Below, piece by piece: positions 7,411 through 21,306 of a DNA stretch of 21,306 nucleotides. Numbering within the stretch: the first letter of the stretch is position 1; each line of letters starts with the position of its first letter. The stretch is taken from IMG/VR virus record IMGVR_UViG_3300010883_000603, positions 1-21,306 of that record; one strand, given 5' to 3'. Both the position numbers and the translations under genes were made by a program. The DNA is from a virus. The notes under the pieces were generated by a model, which was given only the letters and a program-made list of their open reading frames with translations, had not been told where the DNA came from and did no database searches.

Positions 7411-8901
7411 ATGGCAGAACTTTTTGGTTTTGAGATCAATAGAAAGGATAAAAGGCTCCCAGAGCTTCCTTCATTTGTTCCAAACACAGACGATGATGGC
7501 GTAGGCGTTATAAACAGTGGTGGTCATTTTGGCCAGTACGTAGATATCGACGGCGACAATCAGAAAAATGAAGAAGAACTTATATTAAAATATAGGGATA
7601 TAGCTTCACACCCAGAATGCGATGCAGCCGTAGAAGACATTATTAATGAAGCGATTGTAGGTGATAACAGATCAGCACCTATTGAAATTATTATGGACGA
7701 AATGGAAGCATCTGATAAAGTGAAAAAGGTTATTAAAGAAGAGTTTGAGAATATTATCTCGCTTTTACATTTTAATAGTTATTCGCACGACATATTTAGA
7801 AAATGGTATGTAGATGGCAGATTGCCGTATCATATTATTATAGACAACAAAAACCCTAAAAAGGGTATTCAAGAATTACGATATATTGACCCGATCAAGC
7901 TGAGAAAAATAAAAGAGATCACAGAAGAAAAAGATCCAAGAACCGGGGCTAATATAATTAAGAAGTCTGAAGAGTACTTCTTATTTCAAGATACTAGTAT
8001 GAGAGGAGCGGATACAGGATTACGAATACATCCTGATTCTATAGCATATTGCACATCGGGTATGTTAGACCCAAGCCGCAAAAGAATACTATCATTCTTG
8101 CACAAAGCGATTAAGCCTGTTAATCAATTAAGAATGATGGAAGATTCGTTGGTTATTTACAGAATTAGTAGAGCACCAGAAAGACGAATATTTTATATTG
8201 ACGTTGGTAACTTACCTAAGGGTAAAGCCGAAGAGTATTTAAAGAACATTATGGGCCAATATAGAAATAAATTGGTTTATGATGCTAGTAGTGGAGAGAT
8301 TAAAGATGATCGTAAGCATATGTCAATGCTTGAAGATTTCTTCTTGCCACGAAGAGAGGGCGGTAGAGGTACTGAAATCTCAACATTACCTGGCGGAGAA
8401 AATCTCGGTCAGATAGATGATATTATATACTTTCAAAAGAAGTTATATAAGTCACTGAACGTTCCGGCTAATCGTTTGGAACAAGAGTCAGGGTTTAACT
8501 TAGGTAGATCTACGGAGATCTCTAGAGATGAAGTTAAATTTAAGAAGTTTTTAGATAGATTAAGAAAAAGATTTAGCGATCTATTCTTGCAACTATTAAA
8601 AACACAGTTAATGCTAAAAGGCATTTTAACTAAGGAAGATTGGGCTAAGTGGAAAGAAGATATTTACTTCGACTTTATTGAAGACAATTACTTTAGTGAA
8701 TTGAAAGAGGCTGAGATAACAAGAGAGAGATTCGAAATGTTAGCTCAAATGGATGAATATGTCGGTAAGTATGTTTCTACTGAGTGGGTTAAGAAAAATA
8801 TACTAAGACAATCTGATGACGTGATCGCTGAAATGCAAAAACAGATAAAAGCTGAAAAGGCTTCTGGCGAAATCGAAGATGACGACGACCTTGACATCTA
8901 A
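7411..8901 (+). CDS. 20: Portal protein gp20
   Basis: Homologue of T4 gp20, the dodecameric portal at one head vertex that nucleates prohead assembly and later docks the gp17 motor and the neck. Recognisable stretches are YRDIASHPECDAAVEDIINEA (about residues 61-81), the WYVDGRLPYHIIID segment, LRYIDPIKLRKI, and the central ETNR-like region (LPGGENLGQIDDIIYFQKKLY then SLNVPANRLEQESGFNLGRST). It is 496 residues against 524 in T4. The C-terminus is very acidic (IEDDDDLDI). The start has a TTGAGG ribosome site. Confidence 0.96.
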   Translation: MAELFGFEINRKDKRLPELPSFVPNTDDDGVGVINSGGHFGQYVDIDGDNQKNEEELILKYRDIASHPECDAAVEDIINEAIVGDNRSAPIEIIMDEMEASDKVKKVIKEEFENIISLLHFNSYSHDIFRKWYVDGRLPYHIIIDNKNPKKGIQELRYIDPIKLRKIKEITEEKDPRTGANIIKKSEEYFLFQDTSMRGADTGLRIHPDSIAYCTSGMLDPSRKRILSFLHKAIKPVNQLRMMEDSLVIYRISRAPERRIFYIDVGNLPKGKAEEYLKNIMGQYRNKLVYDASSGEIKDDRKHMSMLEDFFLPRREGGRGTEISTLPGGENLGQIDDIIYFQKKLYKSLNVPANRLEQESGFNLGRSTEISRDEVKFKKFLDRLRKRFSDLFLQLLKTQLMLKGILTKEDWAKWKEDIYFDFIEDNYFSELKEAEITRERFEMLAQMDEYVGKYVSTEWVKKNILRQSDDVIAEMQKQIKAEKASGEIEDDDDLDI

Positions 8902-12669: not shown

Positions 12670-12677
12670 TATAAATA
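12670..12677 (+). promoter_or_regulatory. Late promoter giving a predicted leaderless mRNA
   Basis: Exact TATAAATA with exactly 5 nt (GATAT) between the box and the ATG at 12683. T4 late transcription begins about 6 nt after the box, so +1 should be the A of ATG. No ribosome site is present upstream. Confidence 0.75.
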
Positions 12678-12682
12678 GATAT

Positions 12683-13141
12683 ATGACTACTACAAATAAG
12701 AACTTTTTGAGCCCTACGGGGTTTCAATTTAAAATCGATTCTACTCAATATTCTAACGTTGAATATTTCTGTACATCGGTAACTATGCCCGACTTGTCTT
12801 TAGGAGAAGTTCCATCACCTTATAAAGGATCAAACCTTGCATTTACAGGTGACAGAATTAATTTTGGCGATTTAGCTATTAGGTTTAACGTTACTGAGAA
12901 TATGGAAAATTATATTGAGATGTTTAACTGGATGCATAATATAATACAACATGGGGAGAAGTTTAAATCAGACGCAACCCTTTCTATATTAAGCAGTCAT
13001 AACAATGTCACTAAGGAAATAACATTTACTGATTGTTTCCCTACCAATCTATCCGCTGTTGAATTCTCAACACAACAAACTGATGTTGAATATTTACAAG
13101 CTGACGTAACACTGAAATACACTTATTTCGAAATCAAATAA
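12683..13141 (+). CDS. Tail-tube-fold virion protein, paralogue of gp19
   Basis: This 152-residue protein shares landmarks with the gp19 of this window. Here YKGSNLAFTGDRINF (about 48-62) matches FRGRQLQLAGDR there. Likewise CFPTNLSAVEFS (about 119-130) matches CFPTNLSTIELS, and both end in a similar beta strand plus YFE/YWE. It therefore belongs to the tube-protein superfamily and arose by duplication. In marine T4-like genomes a gene at this place is sometimes labelled gp3 (tail completion). I cannot confirm that label, and a baseplate-tube initiator or tail-end cap is equally possible. It has a late promoter but no ribosome site; predicted to be leaderless. Confidence 0.85.
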   Translation: MTTTNKNFLSPTGFQFKIDSTQYSNVEYFCTSVTMPDLSLGEVPSPYKGSNLAFTGDRINFGDLAIRFNVTENMENYIEMFNWMHNIIQHGEKFKSDATLSILSSHNNVTKEITFTDCFPTNLSAVEFSTQQTDVEYLQADVTLKYTYFEIK

Positions 13142-13694: not shown

Positions 13695-15202
13695 TGGAAA
13701 AATTAATCGTTAAGAAAAAGAACGAAGTATTTTTAAGTGTGGTAACTGAACCCGGGATAGAGATGGAGTTGTCAGAACACTTTTGCTTCTACGTTCCTGG
13801 TTATAAGTTTATGCCTTCATATAAGAATAGAATGTGGGATGGCAAGATACGACTGTACGATCTTAGAAAAAAGGTTATATACGGTGGATTGTTTAAGTAT
13901 CTGAAGGAATTTGCTGATGCTAGATCCTATGAACTCATAGTTGAAGACAATTCTATGTTTGGTAGACCTGATAGCGAAGAGGTGCACGATTTAGAAAGCT
14001 TTATGAAGGAAATCGAGCTTTCTGTTAACGGAGATGATATAACACCTAGGAACTACCAATTAGATGCGCTCTGGCATGCGTTAACATTAAAGCGATCTTT
14101 ATTGCTTAGTCCTACAGCATCTGGTAAGAGTTTAATCATTTATTTAGCCGTGAGATACTATCTGGACATGTATGATGGCAATGTGCTACTCATTGTGCCT
14201 ACCACATCGCTCGTAGAGCAAATGTATTCAGACTTTGATGACTATTCTAGTAAAGATACGTGGAATGCCGCGGAAAACTGCCATAAAATATACTCTGGTA
14301 AAGAAAAGTATAATATCAAACAGCGAATTATTATCACCACATGGCAATCGATTTATAAGTTACAAAGTAACTGGTTTAAAGATTACGGCATGGTTATTGG
14401 AGATGAAGCTCATAATTTTAAAGCTAAGTCGTTAACTGCTATTTTAGAAAAGTGTGTAAACGCCCAGTACCGATTAGGAACCACAGGAACGTTAGACGGT
14501 ACAGCAACACATCAGCTAGTACTAGAAGGGTTATTTGGTCCGGTTCATAAAGTAACCACGACTAAAAAACTAATGGAAGAAAAGTCATTGTCGCAATTGG
14601 ATATCTTTGTATTGCTTTTAAAATATAGCGATGAACATTGTCGATTAGCGTCAAAAATGAAATACCAGGAAGAGATTGATTTTATTGTAAGATATGGGCC
14701 TAGAAATAACTTCATATCTAACTTGGCTATGGATCAATCCGGTAATACGTTAATACTATTTCAATTTGTGGAAAAGCACGGCAAACCGTTGCACAATATG
14801 CTACAAGAGAAATTTAATGAACTGCCAAGAAACACTAGGAGGTTATTCTATGTCTCAGGTGAAACCGACGTGGATACGAGGGAAGAGATACGAGCTATTA
14901 CAGAGAAGCAGGACGACGCGATTATTGTCGCTAGTATGGGCACTTTTTCTACAGGTATTAATATTAAGCGTTTACATAATATCATATTTGCTTCACCAAG
15001 TAAATCTCAGATTAGGGTTTTGCAAAGCATCGGCCGAGGATTGAGGAAGTCTGAAGATGGTATAGATACTAAGGTATATGATATTGCTGACGACTTGCAT
15101 TGGAAAACAAAAAAGAATTACACACTTGAACATGCCGCGGAGAGAATCAGAATTTATAGTAGAGAGAAATTTGACTATAAAGTTCATGATATAAATATAT
15201 AA
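13694..15202 (+). CDS. uvsW: UvsW-type SF2 helicase
   Basis: Homologue of T4 UvsW, a helicase that unwinds R-loops and branched DNA and switches replication from origins to recombination. The N-terminal domain (YVPGYKFMPSYKNRMWDGKI) is the UvsW substrate-binding part. Helicase motif I is PTASGKS (140-146), motif II DEAH (237-240), motif III TTGTL, and motif VI QSIGRGLRK (444-452). From the ATG at 13694 it has 502 residues, nearly the T4 length (503). The earlier in-frame ATG (13667) would add 9 residues inside uvsY and is less likely, since TAATG coupling is common here. The stop directly abuts iscU. Confidence 0.95.
   Translation: MEKLIVKKKNEVFLSVVTEPGIEMELSEHFCFYVPGYKFMPSYKNRMWDGKIRLYDLRKKVIYGGLFKYLKEFADARSYELIVEDNSMFGRPDSEEVHDLESFMKEIELSVNGDDITPRNYQLDALWHALTLKRSLLLSPTASGKSLIIYLAVRYYLDMYDGNVLLIVPTTSLVEQMYSDFDDYSSKDTWNAAENCHKIYSGKEKYNIKQRIIITTWQSIYKLQSNWFKDYGMVIGDEAHNFKAKSLTAILEKCVNAQYRLGTTGTLDGTATHQLVLEGLFGPVHKVTTTKKLMEEKSLSQLDIFVLLLKYSDEHCRLASKMKYQEEIDFIVRYGPRNNFISNLAMDQSGNTLILFQFVEKHGKPLHNMLQEKFNELPRNTRRLFYVSGETDVDTREEIRAITEKQDDAIIVASMGTFSTGINIKRLHNIIFASPSKSQIRVLQSIGRGLRKSEDGIDTKVYDIADDLHWKTKKNYTLEHAAERIRIYSREKFDYKVHDINI
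15190..15197 (+). promoter_or_regulatory. Late promoter inside the end of uvsW, leaderless iscU mRNA
   Basis: Exact TATAAATA overlapping the last uvsW codons, exactly 5 nt before the iscU ATG. Predicted +1 is the A of that ATG. The 17 bases TATAAATATATAAATGG recur unchanged at the next gene. Confidence 0.75.
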
Positions 15203-15607
15203 ATGGCATATAGTAAAAAAGTAGTAGATAAGTTTGAGAATACTTTAAATAATCCTCAAGCATTTAAAGTTGGAAGATTTGATCCAAAGGAATTAAACGT
15301 AGGTACTGGAATGGTTGGAGCTCCAGCATGTGGCGACGTAATGAAGCTTCAAATAAAATGTGAGCAAAAAGGTAATACTCATATTATTAAAGATGTAAAA
15401 TTTAAAACTTATGGCTGCGGTTCTGCAATTGCATCATCGAGTGAGTTAGTTGAAATGCTTATGGGTAAAACCCTAGAAGAAGCTAAAGAAATTAAAAACA
15501 AGCACATAGTAGATGCTCTAGAATTGCCCCCAATAAAAATACATTGCTCTGTTCTAGCAGAAGACTCTATTAAACAGGCAATTAGAGATTTTGAATCAAA
15601 ACAATAG
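15203..15607 (+). CDS. iscU: IscU-type Fe-S cluster scaffold protein
   Basis: This 134-residue protein is a full-length IscU (E. coli IscU, 128), the scaffold on which IscS sulfur and iron build [2Fe-2S] clusters for transfer to apoproteins. All functional residues are present: C43 and D45 in APACGDVMKLQIK, C72 in KTYGCGSAIASSS, and H114/C115 in KIHCS. The chaperone (HscA) recognition motif LPPVK of bacteria appears as LPPIK (108-112). A few extra residues occur near 15-25. There is no sign of decay. It has a late promoter but no ribosome site and no gap after uvsW. No other isc gene is nearby, so it would have to work with host IscS and HscAB. Confidence 0.96.
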   Translation: MAYSKKVVDKFENTLNNPQAFKVGRFDPKELNVGTGMVGAPACGDVMKLQIKCEQKGNTHIIKDVKFKTYGCGSAIASSSELVEMLMGKTLEEAKEIKNKHIVDALELPPIKIHCSVLAEDSIKQAIRDFESKQ

Positions 15608-15628: not shown

Positions 15629-15636
15629 TATAAATA
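15629..15636 (+). promoter_or_regulatory. Late promoter giving a second leaderless cassette
   Basis: Exact TATAAATA, 5 nt before the ATG at 15642. The bases from the box to the start codon are identical to those before iscU. A GAGG stretch at 15624-15627 is too distant (14 nt) to be a normal ribosome site and lies upstream of the predicted +1. Confidence 0.75.
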
Positions 15637-15641
15637 TATAA

Positions 15642-16031
15642 ATGGAATCAATTAAAAACGTAGACATTAGACATATAAAGCTTACTAACGGTGAGAATAT
15701 CATTTGTTATGTTCAGAGCTGTACCGAGAAAGCTTTTATTGTAGAACGGCCTGCGGCCGTGCAGGTTTCACCTGTAGGACTATGGACTTTTACAGACTGG
15801 TTTCCTTTCTCAGACAAGAAAGTTTATAAGATTATGAAACACTTTGTTATAAATCATACCGAAGTGGTAAACGAAACGAAGGAGTCTTACATTAAATACT
15901 CTTTACAAGGAGAGGCTAGAAAAGACACCATATACGACACCGACTATAATGATTTAGTTGGTGATGAACTAGATACTTCAATGGATATTGATTCATATGA
16001 TCTTGATGCGAAAAGTAAGACTATTCACTAG
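15642..16031 (+). CDS. Small protein with an Sm-like N-terminal domain
   Basis: A 129-residue protein. Residues 8-70 (IRHIKLTNGENIICYV, an IVERPAAVQ strand, then WFPFSDKKVYKI and a conserved-looking HFVINH) follow the strand pattern and Gly/Pro positions of Sm/LSm-like proteins that marine T4-like phages often encode. The C-terminal 50 residues are acidic and probably disordered (about 95-125, YDTDYNDLVGDELDTSMDID). No RNA-binding motif can be proved by eye, and function is unknown. The identical promoter-start cassette pairs it with iscU for late, leaderless expression. It is the last late gene before the control region. Confidence 0.8.
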   Translation: MESIKNVDIRHIKLTNGENIICYVQSCTEKAFIVERPAAVQVSPVGLWTFTDWFPFSDKKVYKIMKHFVINHTEVVNETKESYIKYSLQGEARKDTIYDTDYNDLVGDELDTSMDIDSYDLDAKSKTIH

Positions 16032-16075
16032 ATTACCTACTTTAGTATACCTCCACCTCACCGGTTGACTCTTAT

Positions 16076-16111
16076 ATTATATCACACTTTTGATCATTTG
16101 TACACCTTTTT
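16076..16111 (-). promoter_or_regulatory. Reverse-strand extended -10 promoter
   Basis: On the minus strand, TGTACA (16104-16099) and TATAAT (16081-16076) are 17 nt apart, with a TGA extension before the -10. Over 36 bases it matches the forward promoter at 19614-19649 at 31 positions. That includes runs of 15 (AAAAAGGTGTACAAA), 9 (AAAAGTGTG) and 6 bases. Predicted start is near 16069, reading left into the late genes. No minus-strand gene lies ahead, so the product would be antisense or a small RNA. Confidence 0.75.
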
Positions 16112-16147
16112 ATGCAAATAAACTAAAATAAATTAATTAAAATAGTT

Positions 16148-16177
16148 GTTTACTTTTGAGGTAAACTGTGTTATAAT
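16148..16177 (+). promoter_or_regulatory. gp55 promoter with overlapping inverted repeat
   Basis: TTTACT (16149-16154) and TATAAT (16172-16177) are separated by 17 nt, with a TGT extension on the -10. GTTTAC (16148-16153) and GTAAAC (16161-16166) form a perfect inverted repeat with a 7-nt spacer across the -35 and spacer. That is a typical place for a repressor or activator site. The upstream tract is AT-rich. Confidence 0.75.
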
Positions 16178-16204
16178 ATACTATTATCGGGAGAAATACA
16201 ATAC

Positions 16205-16780
16205 ATGACTAATAAAATCAAACCTAAGGCTAAACCGCACTATGTGAATAACAGAGACTTCTCTAATTCTGTAGTCGATTACGTCAAAAGCGTTCACGAA
16301 GCAAAAGAGGCAGAAACTGCTGTTCCTAAAGTAACAGATTATATTGCTACTTGTTTCATGAAAATATCAGAAGGACTGTCCCACAGACCGAACTTTGTTC
16401 GGTACACCTATCGTGAAGAGATGGTGATGGATGGTGTTGAAAACTGTTTAAGAGCAATCAATAACTATAAGATTGAGACTGCTACAAGAACGGGTAATCC
16501 TAATGCATTTTCATACTTTACTCAAATATGTTATTTTGCTTTTATCAGAAGAATAACAAAAGAGAAAAAGCAACAAGACATTAAATTTAAATTCATTGAA
16601 AAAATGGGTATTGAAGATTTTGCTCAAATGGGAATGGATGATGCAGGTGCACAACAAACAATGCAATATGTTGATACACTTAGACAACGTATCGATCAGA
16701 TCAGAACTAAGGATGATAAAATCAAAGAGTTTGCTAAGATCGAAAAAGAGAAAGAAAAACTAGAACTATTTATGGTATAA
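16205..16780 (+). CDS. 55: Late-transcription sigma factor gp55
   Basis: Homologue of T4 gp55, the small sigma-like factor that directs host RNA polymerase to TATAAATA late promoters with the sliding clamp. It is 191 residues against 185 in T4. The core block (MVMDGVENCLRAINNYKIE at about 76-94, then NPNAFSYFTQICYFAFIRRI at about 98-117) is the region 2-like part that reads the late box. The C-terminus is charged and should contact polymerase or clamp. It has a host-type promoter, as expected for a gene needed before late transcription. Its presence fits the nine exact late boxes found here. Confidence 0.95.
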   Translation: MTNKIKPKAKPHYVNNRDFSNSVVDYVKSVHEAKEAETAVPKVTDYIATCFMKISEGLSHRPNFVRYTYREEMVMDGVENCLRAINNYKIETATRTGNPNAFSYFTQICYFAFIRRITKEKKQQDIKFKFIEKMGIEDFAQMGMDDAGAQQTMQYVDTLRQRIDQIRTKDDKIKEFAKIEKEKEKLELFMV

Positions 16781-16781
16781 T

Positions 16782-17843
16782 ATGAAAGTAGCAATATTGA
16801 ATGATACACATTGTGGTGTAAGGAACTCGTCAGATATATTTTTAAACTATCAAGCTAGGTTTTACGAAGAAGTATTTTTTCCGTATCTTAAAGAAAATAG
16901 TATAAATAGTATTTTACATCTAGGGGATTACTATGAGCATCGAAAGTTCGTCAACTTTAAGGCTCTCCACGCGAACCGCAAGCATTTTCTTGAGCCTATG
17001 CGTGATATGGGCATCACAATGGACATTATTCCTGGGAACCACGACGTATATTTCAAGAACACAAACGAGTTATGTTCACTTAAGGAACTTCTTGGTTACT
17101 TCACATCCAACGTTAATATTATAATGAAGCCCACAGTCTTAGACTATGACGGTCTAAGTGTCGCAGTTATACCATGGATTAATAATAGTAACTACCAAGA
17201 ATATGTAGATTTTGCATTAAATTGTAAAGCCCCGATACTAGGTGCTCATTTAGAACTAGCAGGTTTTGAGATGATGGCCGGAATTACAAATCCACATGGT
17301 ATGAACGCTGACATTTTCTCTAGGTTTGAACGGGTATTATCCGGACATTTTCATACTAGATCTAGTCAAGAGAATGTTGATTACTTAGGATCTCAATTTG
17401 AGTTTACTTGGGCAGATGTTGATGATCCGAAATACTTCCACGTGCTAGACACAGAAACAAGAGAAGTCACACCTATTCGCAATCCTATTACAATATTCAA
17501 AAAAATCATATACGATGATACTAAAACAGATTATAGTAACTTCGACTTTAGCGAGTGCGAACAGAAATTTATAAAGCTGATTGTGTTAAATAAAAACGAT
17601 TTGTACATGTTTGATAAATTTGTCGATAAACTACAAAGCATAGACACATACGAACTTAAAATCGCCGAAAGCTTTGAAGAGTATTTAGGCGAAAGCGTTG
17701 AAGATAGCAAAGTATCTCTTGAAGATACTACTGAGCTATTAGACTCTTATGTTGAAGCAGTCGACACTGACTTAGACAAAGATCATTTAAAAATTGAACT
17801 GAGAAAGCTTTACACTGAAGCTCAAAACTTAGAGGTAGTATGA
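16782..17843 (+). CDS. 47: Recombination nuclease subunit gp47 (Mre11-like)
   Basis: Homologue of T4 gp47, the metal-dependent nuclease of the gp46/gp47 end-processing complex that makes 3' overhangs for recombination-dependent replication. Phosphoesterase motifs are intact: NDTHCG (D8, H10), GDYYEHR (D49), GNHD (N86, H87), GAH (H156) and GHFHTR (H189, H191). It is 353 residues against 339 in T4. It starts one base after the gp55 stop and shares 4 bases with gp46 (ATGA), so the two are coupled. An exact TATAAATA at 16901-16908 lies inside the gene. Confidence 0.96.
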   Translation: MKVAILNDTHCGVRNSSDIFLNYQARFYEEVFFPYLKENSINSILHLGDYYEHRKFVNFKALHANRKHFLEPMRDMGITMDIIPGNHDVYFKNTNELCSLKELLGYFTSNVNIIMKPTVLDYDGLSVAVIPWINNSNYQEYVDFALNCKAPILGAHLELAGFEMMAGITNPHGMNADIFSRFERVLSGHFHTRSSQENVDYLGSQFEFTWADVDDPKYFHVLDTETREVTPIRNPITIFKKIIYDDTKTDYSNFDFSECEQKFIKLIVLNKNDLYMFDKFVDKLQSIDTYELKIAESFEEYLGESVEDSKVSLEDTTELLDSYVEAVDTDLDKDHLKIELRKLYTEAQNLEVV

Positions 17844-19555
17844 TAAATTTTAAATCGGTTTCATGGAAGAATTTTCTTTCAACCGGAAATGATACCATAA
17901 AGGTACAATTGGATAAGACTTCATCAACACTTATAGTTGGTTCGAATGGAGCAGGAAAATCCACAATGCTGGATGCACTTTCATTTAGTTTATTTGGTAA
18001 GCCTCACAGGGATATCAAGAAAGATCAATTAATCAATAGTATTAACAAGAAAGGTACTGTGGTTGAAGTTGAGTTTAACATCGGAAATTCAGAATTTAGA
18101 ATTCTACGTGCTATTAAGCCTAACAAGTTTGAGATTTGGCAAAACGGTAATATGATTAATCAAGCAAGTAATGCTAGAGATTACCAGAAATTCTTAGAGC
18201 AAAACATCCTAAAGCTTAATCATAAATCATTCCATCAGGTTGTGGTACTAGGTAGTAGCTCGTTTATTCCCTTTATGCAATTACCTGCATGGTCACGTAG
18301 GTCTGTTATAGAAGACTTATTAGACATTAACATTTTCAGTAAGATGAATACCTTGTTAAAAGAGCGTAATTCTAAGATTAAAGAAGAACTAAGCGAAATA
18401 AATCATTCATTAGATTTATATAAAGCTAAGATGGATACTCAGTCGAAATATGTCAGAGACTTACAAGCCATTAATAAGGATATGATATCGTCTAAAGAAG
18501 CGTCTATTAAGTCATATGAAGATGACGTTAAAGCTTTAGTTAGCGAATCTCACGCATTAGGAAAAAACATTACCGCATTAACAGACATAGAAAGTACTAG
18601 ACATGACGAGCTTTCTGAAAAAACCTCTGATATAAAATCTAGAGATATGGTGTATAAATCAAAAATCAAAGACCTAGTTAATGAAGCTAAGTTTTTTGAA
18701 GATAATGAGCATTGTCCTACATGCGATCAGGATATAGACATTTCTATTAAAGAAACTAAGTTGACTAAAATTAAAAAGGCTGCAGCAGATATTCAAAAAG
18801 GCATGAAAGATATTGCACTAGAGTGCGATACTAATGCAATATTGCTAAAGGAATGTCAGACAAGTATGAAAGGCCTATTAGATAGACAACGAAGTATCAA
18901 CTCTAATAATGATAAAATTAATCTAATACAGCAAGAGATAGAAAAGATACAGAAAGAGATCAGCACTTTATTGCAATCTTCTGGAGATATAAAAACGGCT
19001 AAAGTCGAATTAAACGATCTGAGAGATAACAAAGATATTGTCACTGAAAAGAAATTAGAATATGTAGAAGAAAGAACTTATAATGAAGTCATTGGAGAGA
19101 TGCTTAAAGATACTGGTATTAAAACGAAAGTTATTAAACAGTATCTACCAGTCATGAATAGACTTATTAATCAATATTTACAAGTTTTAGATTTCTTTGT
19201 CGCATTCCATTTAGATGAAAGCTTTAACGAGACTATTAGATCTAGACATCGTGACGCATTTAATTACGCGTCATTTAGTGAAGGCGAAAAACAAAGAATT
19301 GATTTGTCTTTACTATTTACGTGGAGACAGATTGCTAAAATGAAGAATTCAGCTTCTACTAATTTACTTGTACTAGACGAAACCTTTGATTCTTCATTGG
19401 ATCATGACGGTATCGACAATTTAACTAAGATTCTAAACACACTTGAAGACGGAACTAACGTGTTTATTATATCACATAAGGGCGATATCCTAGAAAATAA
19501 GTTTAGATCTAAGATAGAATTCATCAAAGAACGCAACTTTTCGAAGATCAAATAG
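17840..19555 (+). CDS. 46: Recombination ATPase subunit gp46 (Rad50-like)
   Basis: Homologue of T4 gp46, the SMC-like ATPase partner of gp47. Walker A is GSNGAGKST (34-42). Two coiled-coil arms (about 165-285 and 300-405) flank the zinc-hook CPTC (C292-C295). The ABC signature is FSEGEKQR (479-486), Walker B LLVLDE (509-514), and the switch His is in ISHKG. All parts needed for a working enzyme are present. It is 571 residues against 560 in T4. Both subunits sit downstream of the gp55 promoter with no gap, so gp55-47-46 form one unit. Confidence 0.97.
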   Translation: MINFKSVSWKNFLSTGNDTIKVQLDKTSSTLIVGSNGAGKSTMLDALSFSLFGKPHRDIKKDQLINSINKKGTVVEVEFNIGNSEFRILRAIKPNKFEIWQNGNMINQASNARDYQKFLEQNILKLNHKSFHQVVVLGSSSFIPFMQLPAWSRRSVIEDLLDINIFSKMNTLLKERNSKIKEELSEINHSLDLYKAKMDTQSKYVRDLQAINKDMISSKEASIKSYEDDVKALVSESHALGKNITALTDIESTRHDELSEKTSDIKSRDMVYKSKIKDLVNEAKFFEDNEHCPTCDQDIDISIKETKLTKIKKAAADIQKGMKDIALECDTNAILLKECQTSMKGLLDRQRSINSNNDKINLIQQEIEKIQKEISTLLQSSGDIKTAKVELNDLRDNKDIVTEKKLEYVEERTYNEVIGEMLKDTGIKTKVIKQYLPVMNRLINQYLQVLDFFVAFHLDESFNETIRSRHRDAFNYASFSEGEKQRIDLSLLFTWRQIAKMKNSASTNLLVLDETFDSSLDHDGIDNLTKILNTLEDGTNVFIISHKGDILENKFRSKIEFIKERNFSKIK

Positions 19556-19577
19556 TTATAAAAAGCTAAATACATAT

Positions 19578-19585
19578 AATAAATA
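19578..19585 (+). promoter_or_regulatory. Possible variant late promoter after gp46
   Basis: AATAAATA matches seven of eight late-box bases in the gap after gp46, with predicted +1 near 19591. It would give the following gene a second, late promoter beside the stronger host-type one. Confidence 0.3.
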
Positions 19586-19613
19586 GATATAAAAATAGTA
19601 CACTTATTTTCAA

Positions 19614-19649
19614 AAAAAGGTGTACAAAGCCTTAAAAGTGTGGTATAAT
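19614..19649 (+). promoter_or_regulatory. Extended -10 promoter for the CobT-like gene
   Basis: TGTACA (19621-19626) and TATAAT (19644-19649) are 17 nt apart, with a TGG extension. It is nearly identical to the reverse promoter at 16076-16111. GTACAC (19598-19603) and GTGTAC (19620-19625) make an inverted repeat reaching into the -35. ATGGTACCAT (19648-19657) is a perfect 10-bp palindrome over the expected start. Both could be operators. Confidence 0.8.
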
Positions 19650-19677
19650 GGTACCATATTAAAGATAAGGAGTTAAT

Positions 19678-21306
19678 ATGTACAACAATTCAAGTCTACC
19701 CAAATTACTGGCAAAAGAAAATATTACTATAAGACATGGTAATTACAGGACCCCATGGTTCGATATTAAGAACCGTGTTCTAGGTCTACCTTTGTGGAAA
19801 GATATGGGTAAAGATATTTATGATCTATTTGTAGGTCACGAAGTTGGCCATGCACTTGCAACTCCGTACGAAGGCTGGCACGATAGCCCAGAAAAATTAC
19901 AAGGTTGCCCTAGATCTTACATCAACGTTATCGAAGATGCAAGAATCGAAAGAGTGATCAAAAGCACTTATCCAGGACTTGTAGGTCCTTTCAGCAGAGC
20001 TTATTCAAAGCTTTTTGACGACAATTTCTTTGGAACAGACGATTTAGATATAACTGAACTAAGAATTATCGATAAGATTAATCTACAAGCTAAAGTCGGA
20101 TCTCACGTAATCATTGAATTTAACGATGAAGAGCAAGTCTTTATGGATAGAGCAATGTTGACCGAAGATTTTCCAGAAGTACTACAACTTGTTAAAGACA
20201 TCGTAGCTTATGATAAAGCTAACGAAGAGGAAGAAGAGGAAAAGCCAGACAATGCTCCTGACGAACAAGACACTCAGGACGAAGATCAAGAAGGAGATAT
20301 ACCGAGCTCAAACGATGATTCTGACGAATCAAGCGAACAAGACGGCGATGCTCCTTCACCTACTATCGATGATGAAGATGACGAAGACATTTCGTCATCA
20401 TCAAATGGTCACGATGGAGAAGTTTCTCTTACAGACGATGCTTTTAGAAAGAACGAAGAATCTTTATTAGATATTGATGAAGATACAGGAATGCAAATTC
20501 TTACAGTCTCTGATATCAACAAAGAAGTTATGAAAAAAATCATAGTTGATTACAAAGATCTTAAACTCGAGAGAGATAGTAGAGTTCAGCATTTGCATGA
20601 AGAGCAAGTCGAAGAATTGTCTAACGCGAATCTCGCATATCCTGCATACATAAAAAATGTTAAAAGAAGTGTTGGAGTTGCGGTAAAAGAATTCGAAATG
20701 AGAAAAGCAGCAACACAGTGGGCAAAGGCTACAACAGCAAAAACTGGTGTAATCGATGTCAATAAGTTGTTTTCTTACAAGACTAACGAAGATATATTCA
20801 AACAAACAACTAGATTGCATGACGCACAAAGCCATGGAATGATTATGCTTATAGACTACTCAGGATCAATGTATGATTCATTGCCTAAAGTCTTAGAACA
20901 ACTAATACATTTAGTTCTGTTCTGTAAACAAGTCAATATTCCCTTTGATGTCTACGCGTTTACTACTGGAAACAGGAAGCTGAATACCTATGACTTAAAA
21001 AACCAAGGGTTATTATTTGATGGAGATCTAGATCTAGATGATTTGTCTATGCCTTTACTGACTTCTTCAAAGCTTAAAAAAGCCGATTTTGAAGAGTCTC
21101 TGAGAGCTATTCATGCAAGAGCTACTATGTCAACCTGGGCCACTAGATCAATGATTGGTCAATCTGAAGAGTTTGGATCAACGCCTTTGCATCAAGCGCT
21201 TGTTGTTGCTACTCATTTAATTAAAGCATTCAAGACTAAGCATCAGATCGAAAAGATGAATCTTGTAGTGTTTTCTGATGGAGATTCGAATAATCTTCAA
21301 GCCTTC
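19678..21306 (+). CDS. CobT-like protein: HExxH metallopeptidase plus VWA domain (partial)
   Basis: The reading frame is open to the window end: 543 residues, C-terminus missing. The start has an ideal ribosome site (AAGGAG, 5 nt away). Residues 54-58 are HEVGH, a zinc-peptidase motif, followed by NVIEDARIER (83-92), whose Glu could be the third ligand. Residues about 182-262 form a very acidic linker. A VWA domain follows with an intact MIDAS site: DYSGS (D393, S395, S397), T502 and D534. This order resembles cobaltochelatase CobT and other VWA partners of MoxR/CobS-type AAA+ ATPases. T4-like marine phages often carry cobS, and a CobS-like gene may lie beyond the window. The substrate is unknown; cobalamin synthesis is not implied. 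Confidence 0.85.
   Translation, partial: MYNNSSLPKLLAKENITIRHGNYRTPWFDIKNRVLGLPLWKDMGKDIYDLFVGHEVGHALATPYEGWHDSPEKLQGCPRSYINVIEDARIERVIKSTYPGLVGPFSRAYSKLFDDNFFGTDDLDITELRIIDKINLQAKVGSHVIIEFNDEEQVFMDRAMLTEDFPEVLQLVKDIVAYDKANEEEEEEKPDNAPDEQDTQDEDQEGDIPSSNDDSDESSEQDGDAPSPTIDDEDDEDISSSSNGHDGEVSLTDDAFRKNEESLLDIDEDTGMQILTVSDINKEVMKKIIVDYKDLKLERDSRVQHLHEEQVEELSNANLAYPAYIKNVKRSVGVAVKEFEMRKAATQWAKATTAKTGVIDVNKLFSYKTNEDIFKQTTRLHDAQSHGMIMLIDYSGSMYDSLPKVLEQLIHLVLFCKQVNIPFDVYAFTTGNRKLNTYDLKNQGLLFDGDLDLDDLSMPLLTSSKLKKADFEESLRAIHARATMSTWATRSMIGQSEEFGSTPLHQALVVATHLIKAFKTKHQIEKMNLVVFSDGDSNNLQAF

Follow-up and report, generated by a model that had tools for sequence, protein, structure and literature searches.

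The window analysed here is the whole of the virus record IMGVR_UViG_3300010883_000603, a 21,306-nt piece of a T4-like marine phage, and the element in question is a reverse, leftward-pointing early-type promoter (16076-16111, minus strand) that stands between the genes of a Sm/LSm-fold protein (15642-16031, plus strand) and of the gp55-type late sigma factor (16205-16780, plus strand; phrog_234, E 7.7e-51). The reverse promoter was recognised from its sequence and from relatives and consists of a -35 box TGTACA (16099-16104), a TGTG element and a -10 box TATAAT (16076-16081), with a 17-bp spacer and A-rich sequence upstream; sigma70 geometry places the predicted start of its leftward RNA at 16069 on the minus strand, the seventh base after the -10 box. 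Two rightward promoters were compared with it, that of gp55 (16149-16177, plus strand; TTTACT-17-TATAAT with TG), likewise recognised from sequence and relatives, and that of a CobT-like gene (19614-19649, plus strand), recognised by pattern match. Structural genes, UvsY, UvsW, a NifU-like gene, one unannotated gene, gp55, gp46/47 homologues (names taken from the gene order in relatives) and the CobT-like gene (19678-21306, plus strand; matching PHROG 459, 'peptidase'), which continues past the window end, make up the gene content.

The record being the window itself, further copies of the promoter were sought in contigs of relatives. The window and 80 relatives of its gp55 formed the window-type set (n=81 loci) and were compared with 80 cyanophage-type and 80 pelagiphage-type loci and with 6 isolate loci; all locus sets are the best 80 per query and their members are related to one another. 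Genome scans covered eight window-type contigs of 33-128 kb each; the class pattern was TKTACW-N12-TRTGNTATAAT, and one mismatch was tolerated.

The early promoter class and its reverse member

The original prediction had described a 36-bp early-type promoter module used in both directions, one copy being the reverse promoter and the other the promoter of the CobT-like gene, and the inverted pair was confirmed by alignment: the two copies are identical at 31 of 36 positions and, over 37 nt, still at 31, the extra column being a mismatch. The degenerate pattern proposed for the module has two matches without mismatch in the window (16076-16106, minus strand, and 19619-19649, plus strand), and it was absent from 100 of 100 dinucleotide shuffles with three mismatches tolerated. 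It had been held that a lack of further copies would refute the module, and many were found in relatives. An exact 30-base version is present in 11 stretches of IMG/VR contigs, and the class pattern gave 5-19 gene-strand matches per contig, 111 in total, in the eight window-type contigs, in which the reversed-pattern control gave 0. Ten early promoters with a common consensus, differing in the centre of the spacer and with A-rich columns upstream of the -35 box that are UP-like by sequence, were found in a near-identical 33-kb contig (IMGVR_3300027788_000040, L008). Pairwise identity over 37 nt among these ten has a median of 26, with 31 for the reverse and CobT copies, the highest value between any non-identical promoters of this contig, and 37 for the CobT copy and a third copy of the module. 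The reverse and CobT copies are thus a pair at the upper end of the class range and no private duplication.

The promoters have the sequence features of T4-type early promoters, namely a TTTAC/TGTAC-type -35 box, a 17-bp spacer and a TG-extended TATAAT; those of T4 are described in passages of PMC2988021 as having UP, -35, TGn and -10 elements and further consensus regions, and in T6 a single strand holds all 31 matches to the GTTTAC (T4) version, the opposite one having none. Since copies are genome-wide and the consensus is that of T4 and T6, the length of the match is accounted for by the class consensus; neither a specific binding factor nor an unusual sigma factor, both of which that length had been taken to suggest, finds support, and an extra transcription factor was dropped from consideration as unneeded. 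Nor does the gp55 promoter form the separate class once suggested for it, because the TTTAC and TGTAC versions of the -35 box interchange at orthologous sites (the reverse site reads TTTACA in locus L014 and the gp55 site TGTACA in L018) and one pattern covers all. Judged by its boxes and by the class scan of relatives, the shared module is the ordinary, genome-wide early promoter of these T4-like marine phages in either direction, presumably read by the host sigma70 polymerase, and by analogy it would be active immediately after infection. C48C1 and the isolate phages examined have TTGACA-type promoters in place of the class pattern. An additional gene-strand early promoter stands 2.5-3.4 kb upstream of gp55 in two relatives (G004, 78149-78177; G005, 21623-21651), where uvsY and uvsW are perhaps expressed early.

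The strand opposite gp55 holds just 10 class matches in the eight window-type contigs, as against the 111 of the gene strand, and 8 of the 10 are the reverse site; the other two carry one mismatch each. A strict match to the reverse site was found in 80 of the 81 window-type loci, the exception (L038) having one substitution in the -10 box. Upstream of gp55, the top minus-strand sigma70 score exceeded those of all control windows from the same locus in 79/81 window-type, 61/80 cyanophage-type, 48/80 pelagiphage-type and 4/6 isolate loci. At a fixed threshold of 10.2, picked after the scores had been inspected, the site was present in 79/81 window-type, 80/80 cyanophage-type and 64/80 pelagiphage-type loci (63/65, 39/39 and 48/59 in the non-redundant subset), the corresponding antisense control windows passing in 41/820, 39/783 and 69/774 cases (5%, 5% and 9%) and shuffled upstream regions in 4-6%. 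The site was also seen by eye in C48C1, HTVC008M, P-SSM3, S-RSM4 and ACG-2014a. By sequence comparison, the reverse site is kept across window-, pelagiphage- and cyanophage-type Kyanoviridae. In phage Melnitz (MZ577097.1, 72881-73060), three TTGACA-17-TATAAT promoters without mismatch follow one another on the minus strand in a span of 180 bp.

The promoter cassette of the CobT-like gene has a history of its own. About 101 bp around this promoter (19571-19671, plus strand) are identical to a second place in L008, at about 7787-7887, and the third module copy of that contig is identical to the CobT copy, so that the recent duplication is that of the CobT copy with its ~101 bp and not of the reverse copy. 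The cassette stands upstream of unrelated genes at its two places and resembles a mobile regulatory cassette. Upstream of CobT-like genes a forward promoter was found in 58/78 loci by the strict pattern, and a reverse one in 0/78.

Linkage to the Sm-like gene and its late promoter

The Sm-like gene encodes a protein of 129 residues with an acidic tail ending in TIH and was identified by fold model, profile and alignment. The AlphaFold2 model (mean predicted local distance difference test score 80.1, with block means of 89-97 across residues 11-90) has a predicted Sm/LSm beta barrel and a long C-terminal helix. Its closest structure is PDB 3by7 (Z 14.4, root-mean-square deviation 1.3 over 81 residues; profile E 1.3e-12), described as 'structurally similar to Sm/LSm-like RNA-binding proteins'; next to it at the top rank designed TIP60 fusions, followed by canonical Sm/LSm chains with Z 7-8. 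A search of Pfam gave no match, and the PHROG matches are of unknown or vague function. The tail follows T-[IV]-H, the last H being invariant among 50 aligned relatives.

Linkage between promoter and gene was counted in loci with a usable Sm-like gene (78/81 window-, 78/80 cyanophage- and 79/80 pelagiphage-type). A scan just past the stop codon of this gene found the promoter in 77/78, 78/78 and 79/79 loci of the respective types (234/235), with the -10 box a median of 35, 26 and 35 bp past the stop. Sixteen pelagiphage-type loci are without the site beside gp55; in 10 of them the gene that usually precedes gp55 lies further away, and one has no match to that gene. Where the Sm-like gene and gp55 are 343-1028 nt apart, the promoter adjoins the Sm-like gene in 11/11 loci, and the threshold is not reached upstream of gp55. 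The position of the promoter in these sequences assigns it to the Sm/LSm-like gene and not to gp55, and it points through the opposite strand of that gene at a fixed place, the layout of a cis-antisense promoter. That the module faces both ways had already been seen in the original prediction; what is added here is that its reverse copy is a family-wide antisense promoter, by position, tied to the Sm-like gene.

A T4-type late box, TATAAATA (15629-15636, plus strand), is recognisable by sequence exactly 13 nt upstream of the Sm-like gene's ATG, and the late box with one degenerate base, [TCG]ATAAATA, stands alone at 13, 14 or 15 nt from this ATG in 30, 18 and 8 of 72 window-type loci (56/72). 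Boxes reading TATAAATA precede three genes of the window (12670-12683, 15190-15203 and 15629-15642), in each case with 5 nt between the end of the box and the ATG and thus 13 nt from its first base. The T4 late box is placed about one helical turn upstream of the transcription start in passages of PMC2988020; given this geometry, the late mRNA of the Sm-like gene may begin at its start codon, and those of the three boxed genes would be leaderless. The Sm-like gene would thus lie between a late promoter reading rightward and an early one reading leftward, if their timing is that of the T4 counterparts.

A putative early antisense promoter and the alternatives

The promoter class, its position, its near-uniqueness on the opposite strand in window-type contigs, its conservation and its linkage to the Sm-like gene are established, and on balance we lean towards reading the reverse copy as a cis-antisense promoter that would act early and keep the Sm-like gene, a late one, silent before the late phase. 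The leftward RNA would begin ~38 nt past the stop of the Sm-like gene and run back through it. Early in infection, the strong sigma70 promoter would drive polymerase and antisense RNA across the gene, perhaps continuing into the NifU-like and uvsW genes, and this leftward transcription would block or destroy leaky sense RNA. Once the early promoters were off and gp55 in charge, the late promoter TATAAATA of the Sm-like gene would fire unopposed.

A short inverted repeat near the predicted RNA start (ACC GGTGA GGT; 16055-16065, minus strand) was examined by sequence comparison, and its equivalent arms co-vary in relatives. When right arms were dealt among the sequences, a test in which kinship is not modelled, the observed pairing was reached in 0/500 shuffles for the non-redundant pelagiphage-type set (nr33, z 7.7) and in 2/500 for the window-type set (nr31, z 2.8), and a control region further downstream gave z near 0; the arms of the cyanophage-type palindrome are invariant, which makes the test uninformative there. 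Watson-Crick pairs number 206 observed against 163 expected in pelagiphage-type loci, and both G-T and A-C pairs are scarcer than expected, which gives no preference for either RNA strand as the folded one; a count suggesting minus-strand preference in cyanophage- and pelagiphage-type but not window-type loci was discarded as confounded by base composition. The palindrome straddles the predicted +1 in pelagiphage- and cyanophage-type loci and lies just inside the RNA in window-type loci (~+5 in the window). Its site of action could be the 3' end of the Sm-like mRNA, the DNA or, in window-type loci, the antisense RNA.

Several observations weigh against an antisense switch of this kind. The co-varying palindrome near the start is one, as plain antisense interference needs none. 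The early timing of the reverse promoter is taken by analogy from T4, and its transcript is a predicted one. The 11 loci with separated genes share similar gaps and probably reflect few insertion events. The reverse site is weak in Melnitz, and opposite-strand TTGACA-type matches number 5 in HTVC008M and 7 in Melnitz, near-uniqueness being confined to the window-type contigs. Finally, the extra gene-strand early promoter upstream of gp55 in G004 and G005, with a one-mismatch match in G009, indicates that the genes ahead of gp55 are not exclusively late in every contig.

Under ALTERNATIVES, a replication origin, control of gp55 and a trans-acting RNA were considered. The last of these would have the leftward promoter make a short functional RNA with a 5' hairpin, an AGAGG-type motif and then a short piece of antisense sequence, acting in trans or bound by the Sm-like protein as in a pair of Hfq and small RNA. 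The first ~30 nt of the leftward RNA are indeed conserved in window-type loci (the hairpin, then AGAGG/AGGGG-TATAC), the hairpin arms co-vary there, and the promoter is tied to a Sm-fold gene. This reading is nonetheless rather unlikely, since 78 of 80 window-type loci are without a terminator-like site, the 150-nt RNA folds like shuffled sequence (z 0.10), which also led a structured long RNA to be rejected, there is no Rfam match at the site, and an RNA made from the pelagiphage- or cyanophage-type promoter would be without the left arm of the palindrome that straddles its +1. The Rfam search gave no family at the site either in the window or in 12 loci (one tRNA elsewhere). Terminator-like sites for the leftward RNA were found in 2/80 window-, 4/80 cyanophage- and 1/64 pelagiphage-type loci by a method to which Rho-dependent ends are invisible, and sequence conservation downstream of the promoter fades by about +40; both fit the antisense switch, in which transcription across the gene would count and not a conserved RNA body. 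A minus-strand peptide was rejected as well: inspection by eye, uncounted, showed neither a start codon at constant spacing from the AGAGG motif nor a reading frame that persisted.

A transcription-primed origin that starts from an R-loop, like T4 oriF and oriG, would make sense of a single conserved leftward promoter near uvsW and uvsY and of an RNA whose first 20 nt are G-rich in window-type loci, a start favouring R-loops; minimal T4 origins are described in passages of PMC3016281 as a promoter with an unwinding element. We consider it improbable, because in 5 genomes or contigs GC skew at four-fold sites, a weak proxy, does not break consistently there, the promoter has a sigma70-type -35 box and is not of the MotA type (consensus from excerpts of PMC2988021), and an origin would have no reason to travel with the Sm-like gene. 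Tuning of gp55 through divergent-promoter competition or supercoiling draws on the pairing of the forward and reverse promoters, which overlap in cyanophage-type loci with a median gap of -16 bp between the -35 boxes, so that one bound polymerase should exclude the other; as the reverse promoter stays away from gp55 in 11/11 separated loci, there is little prospect of this being its main role. Divergent promoters overlap in L180-L182 as well as in cyanophage-type loci, and in P-SSM3 they do so via a TTGACA-nnnn-TGTCAA palindrome. That the pair is a functionless local inverted duplication of one promoter, for which the top identity of 31/36 among non-identical promoters of the near-identical contig might speak, can be ruled out for practical purposes by the many further copies of the class and by the fact that divergent phages strongly conserve the reverse site.

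An antisense switch on the Sm-like gene being the reading retained, a bolder form of it remains tentative: in Kyanoviridae a dedicated early antisense RNA and the phage Sm-like gene may form a self-contained regulatory pair with the palindrome as shared control element, which would be, for example, the binding site of the Sm protein at its own mRNA end or a structure at the start site that controls the antisense promoter. T4-like phages abound in the sea, and little is understood of how they part early from late expression when almost all their genes share a strand. That one early promoter faces backward next to the same Sm-like gene in three lineage types points strongly to antisense transcription being under selection in lytic phages, and it directs notice to a conserved Sm-fold protein.

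Comparison with known systems

No prior report of the reverse site was found in the open-licence literature, of which excerpts give CfrI of cyanophage S-PM2 as one antisense RNA of T4-like marine phages. CfrI resembles the predicted leftward RNA in being an antisense RNA of such a phage and differs in locus and genes (the psbA region, with psbA and a homing endonuclease) and in its length of ~225 nt, as described in passages of PMC2984593 and PMC5931967. Other cyanophage RNAs named in parts of PMC9964418 and PMC2864571 (PhotoRC-II, wcaG, manA and the glutamine riboswitch) do not correspond to the reverse site, and an entry in the reference list of PMC2988021 concerns T4 gene 32 and its antisense transcription. 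PDB 3by7, from an uncultured source, is the nearest relative of the Sm-like protein in fold and sequence; it is listed as an uncharacterized protein and has no bearing on the promoter. The neck plug of T4 is host Hfq, a Sm-family hexamer, according to PMC12270204, and by analogy a late phage-encoded Sm protein could be its virion counterpart.

The CobT cassette, twice present in the near-identical contig, recalls the PeSL mobile regulatory cassettes of T4-like phages, in which an early promoter cassette is repeated, although no terminator is shown for it (PeSL features as given in excerpts of a citing paper, PMC4503421). With T4 oriF, which is ori(uvsY), and oriG the site shares a promoter whose RNA would be the functional feature and the closeness of uvsY and uvsW, whereas the T4 origins have a MotA middle promoter and an A+T-rich unwinding element and the promoter here is not MotA-type. 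The closest likeness in sequence is to the T4 early promoters, with TTTAC/TGTAC at -35, a 17-bp spacer, TRTGN before TATAAT and A-rich sequence upstream; in T6 none of these lies on the other strand, whereas here each window-type genome has one backward copy at a conserved place.

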